A DNA stretch of 28,960 nt, taken from positions 1 to 28,960 of IMG/VR virus record IMGVR_UViG_3300042884_001760. One strand, written 5' to 3'. Position numbers and translations under genes: made by a program. Position 1 is the first letter of the stretch. Each line of letters begins with the position of its first letter. Of this stretch, positions 11,996 to 19,110 are shown one piece after another. Source of the DNA: a virus. The notes beneath the pieces were generated by a model. That model ran no database searches, was not told where the DNA came from, and saw nothing but the letters and a program-made list of their open reading frames with translations.

Positions 11996-12514
11996 TCAGC
12001 CCCGCTCCAGCGCCGCCGTGAAGCCACTGCCCTGGCCGCTCAGCTGCGGGTCGCGGCTCCAGTTCGCCAGGGTGGGCAGCATCAGCAGCAGCGCCTGGGC
12101 ATGGCTGCCCCGCTGGCGGCGGAGGGCCGCCTCGATCGAGAGCCCCTCGCCGTAGCGGGTGATCGTTTCTTCCCGGAGGAGCTCGGTGTCGTACTCGATC
12201 ACGTCGGCCTTTCTGACCGGCAGGGTGCCGTCGTCAGGAAGGGCATCGGCAGGAACGGCCTTGCGGCGGGTCTCGATGGGTGCCTGCAACTGCTCGGGGC
12301 CCAGCCCCGCCAGCTCGGTGTCGATGGCGGCGATTGCGTCCAGCTCCCGCCGAGCGGTGGGGATGGCATCGGGGTAGAGCTGCTCCAGATCCGCCATGGC
12401 GTCGTTGATCGCCCGGATCGCAGGCATCCGGGCCGGAATAGCGAGGGCAACCCGGATGCCCTCCAGGTCAGCAGCCCGCCAGCGGTAGGGCGAGTCGGTG
12501 GGGGTCTGGCTCAT
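11996..12514 (-). CDS. Hypothetical protein following the portal gene
   Basis: A 172-residue protein whose ATG overlaps the portal stop by four bases (ATGA), so translation is coupled. It is helical and rich in Ala, Leu, Arg and Glu (IRAINDAMADLEQLYPDAIP through ELDAIAAIDTELAGL). No family was recognised. Genes placed directly after a portal often encode head-morphogenesis or head-completion proteins, which is inference from order alone. The C-terminal part (SHAQALLLMLPTLANWSRD) is hydrophobic but too short and too polar for a membrane helix. Confidence 0.65.
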   Translation of the reverse strand: MSQTPTDSPYRWRAADLEGIRVALAIPARMPAIRAINDAMADLEQLYPDAIPTARRELDAIAAIDTELAGLGPEQLQAPIETRRKAVPADALPDDGTLPVRKADVIEYDTELLREETITRYGEGLSIEAALRRQRGSHAQALLLMLPTLANWSRDPQLSGQGSGFTAALERG

Positions 12515-14136
12515 GCGGCTGCAGGCGAGGCTGACTCCTCTTGCCTCAGGGGCACCGGCGCTGAGCTCTCAGCAGCCCTGGGTTCCTGGGCCTGGCGCCC
12601 CTCCCCGGCCTTGGTGGCCGGGCTGTCATCAAGAGTCGGGCTGCTGATCGCATTGGCCGTGGCCAGGGCCAGCTGGTGGCGCAGCTCCTCCCGGCTGATC
12701 ACCCCCTTGTCGAACAACTCGATCCATTCCTTCACCTGAGGCTGCGGTTGGATCGGTGGGGTGAGCGGGCTCACCGTCACCTGCAGACCCGCGCCGGGGG
12801 TAAGGGCCTCCCCCGTAAGAGCGCACCAGTGCTGGAGAAGGGTGGAAAACAGCGACGCTTTCTGGATCGCCATCGCCTGCAGCAGGGCATAGCTCTGCGA
12901 GGCAGTGAGGCTGATCTCCATCTCGGTGCGGGCGGCACCGCGGTTCTGGGAGGGGATCAGGGCATCGCGGCGCATGGTGTCATCGAGGATCTGCAGCCAG
13001 GCGCGGTGCTCCGCCAGGGACCTGGCCCGGATCTCCACGAACTCGAAGGACGCGTCCGAGGGCAGGTCCATACAGGTGTTCGGACCGAGCACCACCGGAC
13101 CGGCCTGGCTGTTGCCCATGGCGTCCACCATCCCCTTGCGCACCCCCACAGGCAGGGCCGTACGGCTCAACAGCTCCTCGTACTCGCTCTTGCAGCGGAA
13201 GTGGTTGAGGTACTGGTGGGCCAGGCCCAGGTGCGGCAGGTCCCCCTCCCCGAAGGCTGAGCCATCGGAGGTGTACCAGCAGGCCGGCAGCCGGGTGATG
13301 CCCTCGAAGGTGGTGACCACGGGGTCGTCGCAACGCCAGCCGCTGGTGGCTTGAGGGTCAGCGCAGACCGGGTGGTGGGCCAGTTGCAGGCCGGTCACGG
13401 CCCCGCCCCTGGCGGTCCCACCCTTGGTGGTGTCGCCGGTGGTGAGCAGCTGCAAGCTGCGGTAGTGCCAGCGGTCTGGGGCGTCGGCATCGCCCAGAAG
13501 GGCGTTGATTTGCTCGGCTACCGCTCCTTCGCTGCCGACCGGTTCAGCGTTCATCGGCCGGTTCACCGGCTCCCGCCAGACGATCCGGCCAGGGAGGCCG
13601 TAGGAGACAGGCAGCCCCCAGTTGAGACAGTTGGCCCGGGGCACCAGCTGCAGCCGCGGGAGGGAGAGGCGATCGCCGCTGCGCAACGCCTCCTGCCGGT
13701 CGCCCTCGCTGGGCCAGCTGTGCTCGGGAGGCAGCACCAGCACCAGGGCGGCACCATCGCGCAGGACCAGCAGATCGGCGGCAGCCAAGAAGACGCCCAG
13801 GTCCGTGCCCCGGCCATCCACATCGGTCAGCACCGAGCTCAGGCTGGCCGGGAGGCTGATCCAGCTGCCACGGCTGAGCATCCCGGCATAGGTGCGCAAG
13901 GCATCACGGAAGAAGCCAGAGGGGCGGGCGGCGTCGAGGCGCTTGCGGTAGGCCGCCTCCGGCTCCCGCTCACCCTTGGGGAGGTAGTGCTCCTTGCGGC
14001 TGGTGCCGTCAGGGGCGGCGAGTAGGGCCCAGCAGTCGGCGGTGATCTGGAGGGATGGGTGCAGGGCAGTCAGGGTTGGGTGCCGGTGCCAGGGAGCGGA
14101 TGGGGCAGAAGCTGGCAGAGCGGGGGCTGGAAGCAC
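12511..14136 (-). CDS. Phage portal protein (DUF4055-like)
   Basis: A 541-residue protein forming the probable portal, the dodecameric channel for DNA packaging. Early residues contain YLPKGEREPEAAYRKRLDAA, the typical start of DUF4055-type portals, followed by an RTYAGMLSRG segment. The central part has ITRLPACWYTSDGSAFGEGD, then LPHLGLAHQYLNHFRCKSEY and EELLSRTALPV. These match the conserved lP..w/P.L..LA.lNl.Hy..kSdye pattern of the family. SLTASQSYALLQAMAIQKAS is the long stem helix. The C-terminal 70 residues are low complexity. The annotated start is a GTG with no strong Shine-Dalgarno, so the first 30 residues are uncertain. Confidence 0.8.
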   Translation of the reverse strand: MLPAPALPASAPSAPWHRHPTLTALHPSLQITADCWALLAAPDGTSRKEHYLPKGEREPEAAYRKRLDAARPSGFFRDALRTYAGMLSRGSWISLPASLSSVLTDVDGRGTDLGVFLAAADLLVLRDGAALVLVLPPEHSWPSEGDRQEALRSGDRLSLPRLQLVPRANCLNWGLPVSYGLPGRIVWREPVNRPMNAEPVGSEGAVAEQINALLGDADAPDRWHYRSLQLLTTGDTTKGGTARGGAVTGLQLAHHPVCADPQATSGWRCDDPVVTTFEGITRLPACWYTSDGSAFGEGDLPHLGLAHQYLNHFRCKSEYEELLSRTALPVGVRKGMVDAMGNSQAGPVVLGPNTCMDLPSDASFEFVEIRARSLAEHRAWLQILDDTMRRDALIPSQNRGAARTEMEISLTASQSYALLQAMAIQKASLFSTLLQHWCALTGEALTPGAGLQVTVSPLTPPIQPQPQVKEWIELFDKGVISREELRHQLALATANAISSPTLDDSPATKAGEGRQAQEPRAAESSAPVPLRQEESASPAAA

Positions 14137-14372
14137 TGGTCGCCGGCGGGGCTACTGGCTTTTGCCAGCGCGAATCCGACAGGGCGTCCAGAGTTGTGTA
14201 GCCAAAGGAATAGGTGGTTTGTGGACCGGTGAACCATGGCTACCAATGAGATACTTGCCGCAGAAATCCCTGCTGAGACAGGACTCAATGGCCATTGCAA
14301 GGCGCTATCCGGCATGGTTCTCGGAATGCACCGGCTATTCGCAGGTGGTTCTCGGAACCTGCCAATAACAAG
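14137..14372. other. Portal upstream region with hairpins, left border of the cassettes
   Basis: This stretch has a CTGGC-TTTT-GCCAG hairpin (14155-14168), whose minus strand also resembles the late motif (TGGCAAAAGCCAGTAG). Further right are two stem-loops with the same 10-nt loop GGTTCTCGGA but different stems: GCAT/ATGC near 14315-14332 and GCAGGT/ACCTGC at 14341-14362. A rightward 46-codon frame (14236-14376, MATNEILAAEIPAETG) ends in a TAG at the cassette border. It could be a small gene or a remnant; I see no family. The region ends with ACAAG just before TTAGGC of cassette 1. Confidence 0.4.
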
Positions 14373-15665
14373 TTAGGCTGATCGATACCAGTACTTCTTT
14401 GTTAAGGCAGGGCGATCATGCACATGAAAACATGCATCTACTGCAAGAAAACAAAAGAAGAGAAGGAGTTTACTTTAGAACATGTGATCTCGCAGTTTCT
14501 TGGCGGGGCACAAGCCCCAGATCAATTAAAAACAAGAGATGTATGCGGAACATGTAATAGCAATCTTGGGCTATTTGTAGATGCATCCTTTGAAAAGGAC
14601 TTTTTGGTCTACAGCATGCTAAGCCAGGCTGCATATTCCTTCTTCAATCCCGATAGACCCACTCCACTTCCATTGAAATGCATGGGCACATCCGACCTAG
14701 AGCCTCCGGAGATGACAGAAGATGAAATATGTGAGTATTGGATTGGTCCATTGGGCGAACAGATATACTGGATTCGTCCATCAGATGAACGTATGTACTG
14801 GTACTCTGGTGGCAATCCAATAACAACCAGAAAAGTAAGCACTAGAGCCTACTTTCTTTGGTCAGAGTATTCTCAAAAGAATCCAATGATTACGTGGCTA
14901 TCCTTCGGTGATGCATTTAAGGGTAGAAAAGTAAGAAAAGTGTCATGCACGGAGGTCGTGGGAGCAGATCCATCAGAGATCGGCTTTTCCAGGGCCGATG
15001 ATTTAGATTTAAAGCGGATTACCTATTTCAATGGCCTATGCAGCCAAGGGCAGACAAGACAAGCCCGGGTATCAATGTACCTTCGACATGATGTCCGGTT
15101 TTTGGCCAAGCTAGCTATTGGAATTGGTCACGCATTATTCGGTGAGACTTTCGATAACTCTAGGCATGCCGGGGAGCTTCATAAAGCGCTATGGTATAGA
15201 GAAGGCGATCCGGAACCAGATATACCGGGCCAAAGCGCTCTAAGGCATGGGAACGAATTTCTTAAAAGTGCTTGCGGGTTCAATAATGCAGTAACTTTAG
15301 CAATTATACCTTCGGAAAAGCATCTTGCTCTAAATCTTAATCTCTCTAGAAATATGAACTGGAATATCGCTCTTGCTGAACTGGAAGACGTCAGAGAGCT
15401 CATGGGAGAGGATTTGCGCCATGGTATATGCGTGATACTATTTAAGACCCTAGGAAAGGGTGTATCTATTTCATTGCCAGAACTAATCGCTCATAACCAA
15501 AACCTAGTGACACACCAGGATCTCGTAGAAGTTGAGGGGCTTGCCAATAATAGCGTTGGTTATTTTGAAAACCTATGAAGAGCCTAACAAGCTCTTCGAG
15601 TGGACAGGCCTCCATCAGGTTGTGCATGTCAATATAGACTCTTGGCCTGTCACTCAAGGGCAGTG
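14373..15665 (+). mobile_element. Integron-like gene cassette 1 (HNH gene plus attC)
   Basis: The unit begins G/TTAGGC at 14372-14378, a perfect GTTRRRY core. It contains one gene in the forward orientation and ends at the G of the next GTT (15665). Its attC starts with GCCTAAC, the exact complement of GTTAGGC, which is the known signature of a cassette that circularises and integrates between G and TT. One gene, a short 5' gap (45 bp) and an attC beginning 3 nt after the stop are standard cassette architecture. Base composition is visibly AT-richer than the phage. No integrase gene is present in the window. The call is sequence-based; mobility is inferred. Confidence 0.7.
14418..15578 (+). 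CDS. HNH-type endonuclease-like protein
   Basis: A 386-residue protein. The N-terminus has the zinc-bound HNH layout: C6-x2-C9 (CIYC), EH at 21-22 followed by VISQFLGG, then VC43-x2-CN (VCGTCNSNLG). This EHV.P.xLGG...VCxxCN pattern is typical of HNH endonucleases in restriction and defence contexts. The remaining 330 residues are not recognised and may hold a sensor or DNA-binding part; TRAYFLWSEYSQKNPMITWL and RHDVRFLAKLAIGIGHALFG look like folded core. The gene is rightward, AT-richer than its surroundings, and the only gene of cassette 1. An ATG at 14424 is an alternative start. A nuclease that acts on invading DNA is the most likely role, by inference. Confidence 0.75.
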   Translation: MHMKTCIYCKKTKEEKEFTLEHVISQFLGGAQAPDQLKTRDVCGTCNSNLGLFVDASFEKDFLVYSMLSQAAYSFFNPDRPTPLPLKCMGTSDLEPPEMTEDEICEYWIGPLGEQIYWIRPSDERMYWYSGGNPITTRKVSTRAYFLWSEYSQKNPMITWLSFGDAFKGRKVRKVSCTEVVGADPSEIGFSRADDLDLKRITYFNGLCSQGQTRQARVSMYLRHDVRFLAKLAIGIGHALFGETFDNSRHAGELHKALWYREGDPEPDIPGQSALRHGNEFLKSACGFNNAVTLAIIPSEKHLALNLNLSRNMNWNIALAELEDVRELMGEDLRHGICVILFKTLGKGVSISLPELIAHNQNLVTHQDLVEVEGLANNSVGYFENL

Positions 15666-15671
15666 TTATAC
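15582..15671 (+). repeat. attC-like recombination site 1
   Basis: R'' GCCTAAC (15582-15588). Left arm TCGAGTGGACAGGCC ends at 15610, then a 33-nt loop, then right arm GGCCTGTCACTC (15644-15655) and R' GTTATAC (15665-15671). The arms pair fully except for one extra G on the left arm, the extrahelical base expected in attC. The outer TAAC/GTTA boxes pair, and the spacer between outer and inner boxes does not. This is the box order R''-L''-L'-R' of integron attC sites. Confidence 0.7.
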
Positions 15672-16769
15672 GGTCTCGCAATCCATGAAAAGACTCTTTT
15701 GATCATGCCCCTTTCTATCGGCGAAGATGAATTAAACGAACGCATCCTGGTACTGGACAACGAACTGATTGACCAAGGCTTTGAGCCATGGCAACGCCAG
15801 ATTCATATTGAATCAAAGTTATCGCAAGAACTGCAGATTAGCTACATAATCAGCGAGAGACATGAGCCCCTCCACGTAAAGCTTATTAAGCAACACTTTG
15901 CCACCTACTACAGGAAGGAGGACTTATTCATGCCTCCACTGCACGTTGGAGCGTTTCTTTATCGCGATCTCTTCTTTCCCATTAGGATTCCAATTATCTT
16001 TGGATCACCAGTAATTGATTTACGCAAGTTTCTTTGTCAAGCAACGGAATCGCAGCTTAAGCTTGTTTTTGGCGAGCGGATAAGCACTTTAACATTCTGC
16101 GATCAGGCATTTGATCTGCTTGACTTTGTTTACGGCCTAGATGATTTAGGCAAGCAGGATCGAATTAACTCAAGGACTATTGAATGGTGGCATCTCGCCA
16201 AACAGCAGCTAGAAGCGGCCGCTGCCACTACTCTGGGATCATTCACGAAATATGCAATTATTCAGAACTGCTGCGTCTCTGCTGAACTTCTATTAAAAGG
16301 AGCTCTGCTGCAGGAAGGAGTTGGCGAGAATCTTCTTTCCAATACGAATAAGGGATATGGCCATAATCTAGAGGGCATCGCAAGTAAGTTTTGCAAGATT
16401 AGGCATGAGATTAACTCTCAGCTAGTCCTCGCCGTAGCCTCTCGAATGCCAAGCTATGTTGAGTCCCGATACAATGATATAGGTTTAACACGTGTACAGC
16501 TTGGGCATTTGCTAATGAATGCTCAATTCCTGGCGGGTGAGATTCTTCGATGCTATTCCGGTCGCAACTTCCGACTTGATGCACAAATTCAAGAGCGGAC
16601 TTATCCATCTATCACTTTTGCGTAACAGCTCGGACCTACGGGCTGGATTGACTGAGGAGGTTGTGTTGCCTGCGAAATCGTCCGCACATCAAGCCCCTCG
16701 AGTGGACAGGCCACTACCAGCATTGAGCTTCGCAACCCTACACTTCTCGCCTGCCACTCATAGGCAGAG
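15666..16769 (+). mobile_element. Integron-like gene cassette 2 (HEPN gene plus attC)
   Basis: The unit starts with TTATAC after the G of attC site 1 and ends at the G of GTTCAAT (16769). It holds one forward gene beginning 40 bp from its border and an attC-like site near its end. Its R'' box is degenerate (GCACATC instead of RYYYAAC), so recombination at this site may be weakened. The gene is AT-richer than the phage. The right border falls in the last bases before the stop codon of the convergent sigma-like gene, so the insertion left that gene intact. Confidence 0.6.
15705..16625 (+). CDS. HEPN-like domain protein
   Basis: A 306-residue protein; the ATG at 15705 is used because earlier in-frame codons lie inside the attC site. 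Residues 1-160 were not recognised. Residues about 165-285 look like a HEPN helical bundle: CCVSAELLLKGALLQEGVG, GYGHNLEGIASKF, MPSYVESRYNDIGLTR, then LLMNAQFLAGEILR. These match the ElxLKaLL, GHxLexL and ESRYxd positions of HEPN proteins. A canonical RX4-6H ribonuclease motif is not visible, so it may be a binding, inactive or divergent member. HEPN proteins often act in toxin-antitoxin and abortive-infection systems. Being the only gene of a mobile cassette next to an HNH cassette supports a defence role, by inference. Confidence 0.6.
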   Translation: MPLSIGEDELNERILVLDNELIDQGFEPWQRQIHIESKLSQELQISYIISERHEPLHVKLIKQHFATYYRKEDLFMPPLHVGAFLYRDLFFPIRIPIIFGSPVIDLRKFLCQATESQLKLVFGERISTLTFCDQAFDLLDFVYGLDDLGKQDRINSRTIEWWHLAKQQLEAAAATTLGSFTKYAIIQNCCVSAELLLKGALLQEGVGENLLSNTNKGYGHNLEGIASKFCKIRHEINSQLVLAVASRMPSYVESRYNDIGLTRVQLGHLLMNAQFLAGEILRCYSGRNFRLDAQIQERTYPSITFA

Positions 16770-16775
16770 TTCAAT
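16684..16775 (+). repeat. attC-like recombination site 2
   Basis: It shares TCGAGTGGACAGGCC with site 1 (here 16698-16712). The right arm GCCTGCCACTC (16749-16759) pairs with GAGTGGACAGGC leaving one extra A on the left arm. GTTCAAT (16769-16775) is the right core. In site 1 the extra base is a G in the same stem, so both sites keep an extrahelical base despite different right arms. R'' is degenerate (GCACATC). The loop is variable in sequence relative to site 1. Confidence 0.6.
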
Positions 16776-17412
16776 CCTGCTCCACCACCTCCATCGCGAC
16801 CACCCGCTGACTGCAGGCCCCAACGATCTCCCGCCACCGCTCTTCCCTGACCCCCAGACGCTCAGGAACCTCTGCCGCTGCCGTTCCCAGCCTGAGCAAC
16901 TTATGCCCTCGCGCATGCAGCTCACGCCAGGAGGCCGGCACCTTGATCAGAAAGCCCTTGTCGCGGAGATAGTGATACACCTCCCCGTTGGCATAGGTGC
17001 GGGCATAGGGCCGAAAGGATCCCCGCTCTGGTGAGAAGCGGCGAGCGGCCTGGAGGATGCCGAGCATGGCGACCTGCTCCAGGTCTTCCCGTGGATGGCC
17101 GGTGCGCCGGGAGATGTTGGCCGCCACGGTCTGCGCGATGTCGCGATGCTGGAGTGCCAGGACGTTGGCAGCGGCGTGGGGGTTGACCGGCCGATGGCGC
17201 CGCGGCTTGGCGGGGAAGGCGATCACCAGCTGAACGGCATCGCCCTGGTGCTGGGGTCGCGGCCGCGGTCGAGGACCGATCCGAACGCGCTGGGTACTGC
17301 TGGGCCGCGGCAGACACGTCGCCACCACCGGCGGCCGCAGTGGCAGATCCAGCTGGCCGCCCGTTCCGCGGCAGGAGGGCGTTCGTAGGGGTCGGGCGAT
17401 GGCGTCGGTCAT
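16771..17412 (-). CDS. Phage sigma-factor-like protein lacking visible region 4
   Basis: A 213-residue protein. Residues about 88-152 match sigma-70 region 2: HPREDLEQVAMLGILQAARR, FSPERGSFRPYARTYANGEV, then YHYLRDKGF. EDLxQvAxlGlxxAaxrF and RGSFxxYA are the core-binding and -10 signatures. Residues 155-203 (IKVPASWRELHARGHKLL, VPERLGVREERWREI) resemble region 3. No region 4 (-35 binding) follows before the stop. The N-terminal 80 residues are Pro/Arg-rich and probably disordered. It follows TerL after 3 nt, so it is made with the packaging genes. The likely role is redirecting host RNA polymerase to late phage promoters. The stop codon lies just outside the cassette border and appears native. 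Confidence 0.7.
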   Translation of the reverse strand: MTDAIARPLRTPSCRGTGGQLDLPLRPPVVATCLPRPSSTQRVRIGPRPRPRPQHQGDAVQLVIAFPAKPRRHRPVNPHAAANVLALQHRDIAQTVAANISRRTGHPREDLEQVAMLGILQAARRFSPERGSFRPYARTYANGEVYHYLRDKGFLIKVPASWRELHARGHKLLRLGTAAAEVPERLGVREERWREIVGACSQRVVAMEVVEQD

Positions 17413-17415
17413 GGC

Positions 17416-19110
17416 TCAGCGGCTAAACACCATCGGCAGCGGCGCCGTGCTGTGGCCCCGCCCGCGCCAGTACTGCGCCTCGATCCAGAGCACCCCTTGG
17501 GTGAAGGCATCCACCTGGTCGTCGATCCCGCCCCTGGGGGAGAAGGCCAGCAGCTCTTCAACCAGCGAGTCGGCCTTGCGGGCAAAGCGCACTTGGCCCG
17601 CCTCCACCAGCGGGGCGACGGCATGGGCGCGGGAGGCCTTGCTGCCCTTGGGCGGGATGGCGATCAACCCGGGCACCTGGCGCTTGAGCAGCTGGCAGAC
17701 GGCCGGGCCGTTGGCGGCGTCCTCGATCAGGACGGCGTGGGGGCGGAGGCCCTGGCGCTCCAGGGAGTTGAGCGATGCCAGCAGGAACTTGATCACTCCT
17801 GGCAGGTCCAGCTGCTGCCGGTGGGCCCAGAGCGCTTCGATCTGGAGCTCAGCCCATGGATCGGGGGGGGCATTCGCCCCCTCGGGATGTGGCGCTCTGC
17901 TGCGCTGGGCACCAGCGGCGTTCGTGGCCAGCGCCAGCCCCTGACGCCGCGCCTCAGCTGCCGGATGCCTCTGAGGCTCCAGCAGGCCCAGCAGGGCAAA
18001 ACCGCAGGCGTCGTTGTCCTTGCCGTCCTTGAAGCTCAAATCGCAGCTCAGCACCAAAGGCGCGTAGCGCCGGGGCTGGCCCAGGGCGACCGGCAGGGGC
18101 GCTTGGATCCAGTCCTTGCGGAACAGCAGACCCTCGGCAGGACTCGGCCGCTGCTGGTACAGGGCGTTCCACCAGTAAGAGCCCAGGCGGGTGCGGATGC
18201 GCTGAAGCACCGCCAACGGCACTCGCTCCGGGCACAGCGGCTCGCCGGGCTGTCGCCAGTCGGCCACCTTCGTGCAGGTATGCGGGATCTGCATAGAAAT
18301 AGCCTCCGGTTCTGCGATCGCCGGCAGGTTGAGCACCGTCCAGTGCTCCGGGTTCTCCTCGGCCTCCTGCTCGAGCAGCCAGGCGGTCATGTCGTGGTGG
18401 TCCCAGCGGGTCTGCACCACCACCTGCGCTGCCGGGAGCAGGGCACCTTCTGCCGTTAGGCCCGGCTCGGCCCGGGTGAACCAGACGCTCTTGAGCCAGT
18501 CGATCAGCCGCTCGCGCTGCAGGGTCGACTTGGCATCCTCCGGGCCCTTGTAGGGGTCATCGATGATCCCGAGGTTGTAGCCCTTCCCGGTGAACGGGCC
18601 CCTCACGCCCGCGGCGATGCAGCCGCCCCGCTGGGGAGTCAGCCAGTTGCCAACTGCCGCCGAATCCTTGGAAAGGGCGTGGCCGGTGCTCCGGTAGTAG
18701 TGCCGAGCCTCCCTGCTGTGGGCATAGGCCAGCTCACCCGAATAGCTGGCGATGGCACAGAACAGTTCGGGGTGGCGGCTCACCCAGTAGGCGGGGAACA
18801 GGCGCGACACCAGCTGGCTTTTTCCATGGCGGGGCGGACAGCAGACGATCAATCGCGTCAGCTGCCCGTCGGCCACCTGCTGCAGCAGGTCGATCAGCAG
18901 CTCCGATAGCCGGTGGAACTGGAAGGTGGGGAAGGCGATTTGGATGAAGTCGCGGAACAGCAGGCCTTGGCGGGTCGTTGTCGCCCGGTCGGGATCCGGA
19001 ACGCCCAGCAGTCCCCAGTCGGCCCACAGGTCGGTGGTGGGGTCCAGCAGCAGGCCACCCTCATGGCCAGATGAGGCAGGGAGCTGCAGGGTGGAGGCGA
19101 CGCGGCCCAT
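17416..19110 (-). CDS. terL: Terminase large subunit
   Basis: A 564-residue packaging motor. The ATPase domain has Walker A CCPPRHGKSQ (about 90-99), Walker B LGIIDDP (180-186) and a coupling-type QTRWDHHD (233-240). The RNase-H-like nuclease domain has LSCDLSFKDGKDND (acidic D357), LIEDAANG (461-468) and the terminal GIDDQVDAF (529-537). An Ala/Arg/Pro-rich insertion of about 40 residues (383-422) interrupts the nuclease domain after its first strand and looks disordered. The start ATG overlaps the TerS stop (TGATG). It acts at the portal to cut and translocate DNA. Length and motif order are normal for the family. Confidence 0.95.
   Translation of the reverse strand: MGRVASTLQLPASSGHEGGLLLDPTTDLWADWGLLGVPDPDRATTTRQGLLFRDFIQIAFPTFQFHRLSELLIDLLQQVADGQLTRLIVCCPPRHGKSQLVSRLFPAYWVSRHPELFCAIASYSGELAYAHSREARHYYRSTGHALSKDSAAVGNWLTPQRGGCIAAGVRGPFTGKGYNLGIIDDPYKGPEDAKSTLQRERLIDWLKSVWFTRAEPGLTAEGALLPAAQVVVQTRWDHHDMTAWLLEQEAEENPEHWTVLNLPAIAEPEAISMQIPHTCTKVADWRQPGEPLCPERVPLAVLQRIRTRLGSYWWNALYQQRPSPAEGLLFRKDWIQAPLPVALGQPRRYAPLVLSCDLSFKDGKDNDACGFALLGLLEPQRHPAAEARRQGLALATNAAGAQRSRAPHPEGANAPPDPWAELQIEALWAHRQQLDLPGVIKFLLASLNSLERQGLRPHAVLIEDAANGPAVCQLLKRQVPGLIAIPPKGSKASRAHAVAPLVEAGQVRFARKADSLVEELLAFSPRGGIDDQVDAFTQGVLWIEAQYWRGRGHSTAPLPMVFSR

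Follow-up and report, generated by a model that had tools for sequence, protein, structure and literature searches.

Two adjacent genes of low GC content, lying against the direction of the surrounding late genes, raise the question of what they do in a phage genome and whether they act together. The earlier note had read them as a possible anti-phage defence pair, an HNH-type gene and a HEPN-like gene in consecutive integron cassettes. We analysed them in the viral record IMGVR_UViG_3300042884_001760, within a window (the whole stretch of DNA analysed) of 28,960 bases whose late operon is encoded on the minus strand.

A low-GC insert in the late operon

By terminase, the nearest isolates are two Synechococcus phages, S-CRES3 and S-CBS2, with identities of about 36-37%. 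The order terL-sigma is common to the window and both isolates, and in both isolates the primase gene comes next. The insert of the window lies between the stop codon of the sigma factor gene and the portal gene, and carries two plus-strand genes, opposite to terL, sigma and portal (Table 1). Both open reading frames proposed in the earlier note are real, and both are, as it had described, AT-rich and antiparallel to the late operon, with a GC content of 0.44-0.46 in the insert versus 0.68 elsewhere in the window.

Table 1. Features of the sigma-portal interval and its flanks in the window.
Feature	Position	Strand	Basis
Portal gene (DUF4055), left slot anchor	12511..14136	-	Pfam; PHROG portal 7e-33
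Left boundary zone of the insert	14273..14372	.	blastn against relatives; sequence
Proposed cassette 1 (HNH gene and most of attC1)	14373..15665	+	inference
HNH_5-domain protein P0001, 386 aa	14418..15578	+	Pfam HNH_5 3e-16; conserved residues
attC1-like site	15582..15671	+	R'' GCCTAAC, bulged stem GAGTGGACAGGC/GCCTGTCACTC, R' GTTATAC
Proposed cassette 2 (HEPN-like gene and attC2)	15666..16769	+	sequence; inference
HEPN-like protein, 306 aa	15705..16625	+	homologue alignments, structure model, PDB fold matches, Pfam in homologues
attC2-like site	16684..16775 (about)	+	degenerate R'' GCACATC, R' GTTCAAT; alignment to attC1, fold
Sigma factor gene, right slot anchor	16771..17412	-	Pfam Sigma70_r2 1e-12; PHROG sigma factor
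terL	17416-19110	-	

The sigma-portal slot in related phages

The slot was compared between the window and eight related viral contigs (L003-L008, L010 and L011), whose flanking sigma, portal and terL proteins are mostly 75-92% identical. The nine slots are all filled. Their contents measure 1.0-5.0 kb and are low in GC (0.46-0.56 versus 0.64-0.68 in the flanks), and the cargo proteins gave no match when compared between the nine slots. Known defence systems are part of this cargo: PADLOC detected IetA (2e-73) and IetS (5e-58) in the slot of L004 and the Shedu protein SduA (2e-55) in that of L010. A PLD-helicase with a HamB-like match is encoded in the L008 slot, and a weak GapS1-like protein together with a pentapeptide protein in the L006 slot. 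The sister-slot cargo not recognised as defence includes an ATP-grasp protein resembling maturases, a HINT protein and two unrecognised proteins. The ATP-grasp protein (L003:8835-10327) is of the ribosomal-peptide maturase type (2e-44) and has a small ORF nearby. The two unrecognised proteins, of 598 aa (L007:8449-10245) and 478 aa (L011:4724-6160), are candidates for new defence genes.

Because all nine slots hold different foreign cargo between two conserved phage genes, with IetAS and Shedu in sister slots, the sigma-portal interval is, as judged from sequence comparison, a phage-borne defence hotspot of a cyanophage clade. It resembles the hotspots described in P2 and P4 (2022, PMC9122126) in being a locus of about 1-5 kb framed by two conserved phage genes, with a fast turnover of known and unknown defence genes. 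Unlike them, it belongs to an unrelated clade, of cyanophages, lies inside the late operon, has one member with attC-like sites, and occurs in records in which no tyrosine integrase was found. This search covered eleven records, possibly fragments and the longest of 76 kb, none of which encodes a tyrosine integrase above the cut-off; lysogeny is thus not evident from records that may be incomplete.

Proposed cassette structure of the insert

Homology of the phage leader to L003 and L004 stops at 14272-14273 in blastn comparisons. Beyond this point, the heptamer GTTAGGC at 14372 matches the reverse complement of the attC1 R'' box at 15582 in every base, as expected of the left end of cassette 1 itself, and the crossover G^TTAGGC is proposed at 14372-14378. 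The attC1-like site has ends of the RYYYAAC...GTTRRRY type and a stem of 12 pairs with a single bulge. Among 200 dinucleotide shuffles of the insert, none reached 12 pairs and none exceeded 9, and the bottom-strand fold of attC1 gave z=-2.9 against shuffles. The attC2-like site keeps the stem of attC1, with a fold of z=-1.3, and its R' box (16769-16775) abuts the sigma stop codon. Set against the hallmarks of an integron cassette, namely R'' and R' boxes, a bulged stem and an R'' box complementing the left end, attC1 displays all of them and attC2 falls short in its degenerate R''. The earlier claim of consecutive integron cassettes consequently holds for the first, with its attC1 and its junction at 14372, and only in part for the second. 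Both genes are probably of cassette origin.

The window record has no PF00589 match that would indicate an integron integrase. CALIN-type arrays are without an integrase by definition, so that its absence does not exclude a cassette. Clusters of attC sites have been described in phages (Qi et al. 2023, PMC9892861), and the window resembles these CALINs in combining attC-like sites and cassettes with no integrase in a phage. Unlike them, it has one full and one degenerate attC-like site, both predicted, and its cargo lies in a defence hotspot. In the other slots, no attC arrangement was found apart from a half remnant of the attC repeat at the same slot edge in L006. The possibility that the whole slot is fed by integrons was rejected for this reason, and the hotspot is independent of integrons.

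The attC repeat also occurs in the viral contig L025, a related high-GC phage, beside an AT-rich gene for a C5-cytosine methylase (L025:363-1694); this attC-like repeat has an R'' GCCCAAC and a non-standard R'. A match in L026 was judged to be due to chance. Upstream of the portal gene, at 14230-14238 and 14315-14359, lie palindromic repeats of the GGTTCTCGGAACC type, together with a GAACCATGG motif that is common to several relatives. They are possible regulatory sites.

The HNH protein

The HNH_5 domain spans residues 6-63 of P0001 (E=3e-16; 59.5 bits for a curated Pfam cut-off of 27.5), and C6, C9, H22, C43, C46 and N47 are kept in an alignment of six homologues. The protein thus shares with HNH_5 (PF14279) proteins the metal-binding/catalytic head with its conserved C, H and CN residues. 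It differs from them in an additional body of about 320 residues with no match to a Pfam, PADLOC or NCBIfam family, in agreement with the earlier description of an HNH-type protein with an unrecognised body. The structure model has a pLDDT of 33, a confidence at which the body is not resolved, and a PDB sequence search returned weak matches to HNH domains only. Scans with PADLOC, NCBIfam and PHROG gave no name to either whole protein of the insert.

Relatives with 45% identity lie in P2-like prophages on three viral contigs. These contigs have genes of P2 type, among them tail hub D on L021 and, on L023, replication gene A and an integrase, and the neighbours of the HNH relatives are AT-rich. 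More distant relatives, at about 30% identity, are located on alphaproteobacterial plasmids, twice beside a RES gene and an Abi_2/PD-T4-5-like gene. The family was present in none of the 369 Gammaproteobacteria genomes sampled.

The HEPN-like protein

The second open frame covers 15600-16625. Its homologues align only from the ATG at 15705, and the start is therefore probably located there rather than upstream. The structure model comprises an N-terminal region of about 130 residues, whose fold is not recognised, and a helical C-terminal domain (residues ~133-295).

The HEPN assignment is plausible, although weak by profile and by structure. The C-terminal half is modelled as a helical bundle for which HEPN domains are the best-ranked PDB folds, at a non-significant E of 0.3. 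The Pfam HEPN profile scores just below the cut-off (1e-3 and 4e-3), in homologues only, and a PDB sequence search with the family returned nothing. The canonical RX4-6H motif, already reported as not visible in this protein, is absent from all seven aligned members of the family, in which 'PxYVxxRY' is conserved in its place, with invariant R255-Y256 and G260 (counted along the 306-aa form). The family resembles the HEPN superfamily (PF05168; HEPN-MNT toxin structures 7ae6 and 8xeh; 4nqf) in the weak profile match of homologues and in the best-ranked folds, and departs from it by the lack of RX4-6H, by an extra N-terminal domain and in that no MNT partner was seen.

Six relatives with 26-30% identity were found, in two Pseudomonas, Sphingobium, Croceicoccus, a Sphingomonadales MAG and Microvirga. 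Gabija adjoins two of the six: the gene directly follows GajA-GajB in Microvirga, and follows them with an IS5 copy in between in Croceicoccus. These loci (L020:5016-8870 and L017:814-6501) belong to two genera and carry different GajA and GajB subfamilies. Beside Gabija, the HEPN-like gene is possibly an accessory or co-island gene. PADLOC models matched neither protein of the insert nor the HEPN relatives tested. The full-length family was present in one of 385 Alphaproteobacteria sampled, the centre genome itself. By these small family samples, both the HNH and the HEPN-like families appear to be rare.

Separate defence genes, a homing endonuclease or passengers

The two genes are adjacent, have the same orientation and a similar GC content and share one slot, as would components of a single two-gene defence system. 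However, an attC-like site lies between them, none of the loci seen with a relative of one family contains the other, and the HNH family has no member in three whole genomes that carry the HEPN-like family. The pair reading is not supported by these loci and genomes, and a two-gene system is very unlikely; the two genes most likely act separately. The defence half of the earlier proposal fared better. Its strongest support is the slot as a defence hotspot, with IetAS and Shedu in sister slots, to which the position of relatives beside Gabija or Abi genes or within P2-like prophages can be added. From this location and these neighbourhoods, we infer an anti-phage activity of both proteins; the triggers and biochemical targets are proposals.

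Phages often carry intergenic HNH genes as mobile elements, and the turnover of the slot is fast, so that the HNH protein could instead be a free-standing homing endonuclease by which its gene and the cargo next to it spread to this slot in related phages. Yet the gene is present in none of the eight related slots, and its relatives are scattered singletons of plasmids and P2-like prophages, beside Abi or methylase genes rather than at allelic phage sites. In typical free-standing HNH homing enzymes, moreover, the corresponding body is much smaller than these approximately 320 residues. We regard homing as improbable. Both genes might also be passengers, brought into the phage by chance as integron cassettes and without a role against other phages. 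The quality of attC1 as an integron-type site and the attC clusters known in phages (PMC9892861) fit this reading, as does the fact that many integron cassettes have no assigned role. Against it, the slots of sister phages hold known defence systems with no attC sites, and the two frames are intact, with conservation across phyla; passengers thus seem unlikely. We consider it reasonably probable that the two genes are independent single-gene anti-phage cargo units, carried by integron-type cassettes in a cyanophage hotspot.

As independent cargo units, the two genes would have reached the slot probably as integron-type cassettes, and each protein would most likely block competing phages in a cell occupied by this phage. 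The HNH protein may be an effector that cuts DNA, its ~320-residue body serving to recognise or gate the target. The HEPN-like protein may be an effector or growth-arrest protein, with an N-terminal domain sensing infection and a C-terminal HEPN-fold domain acting without RX4-6H.

Implications

We found no paper on a defence hotspot in cyanophages in the literature searched, and the two anchor genes of the slot can be used to mine further systems. The insert adds two candidate single-gene defence families, one of which adjoins Gabija in two genomes, and connects a phage's own defence slot with cassettes of the integron type. More tentatively, a cyanophage clade with no evident integrase may keep a dedicated defence slot open to restocking from integron cassettes, and with it two new single-gene defence classes, one of them with a HEPN fold lacking the canonical motif.
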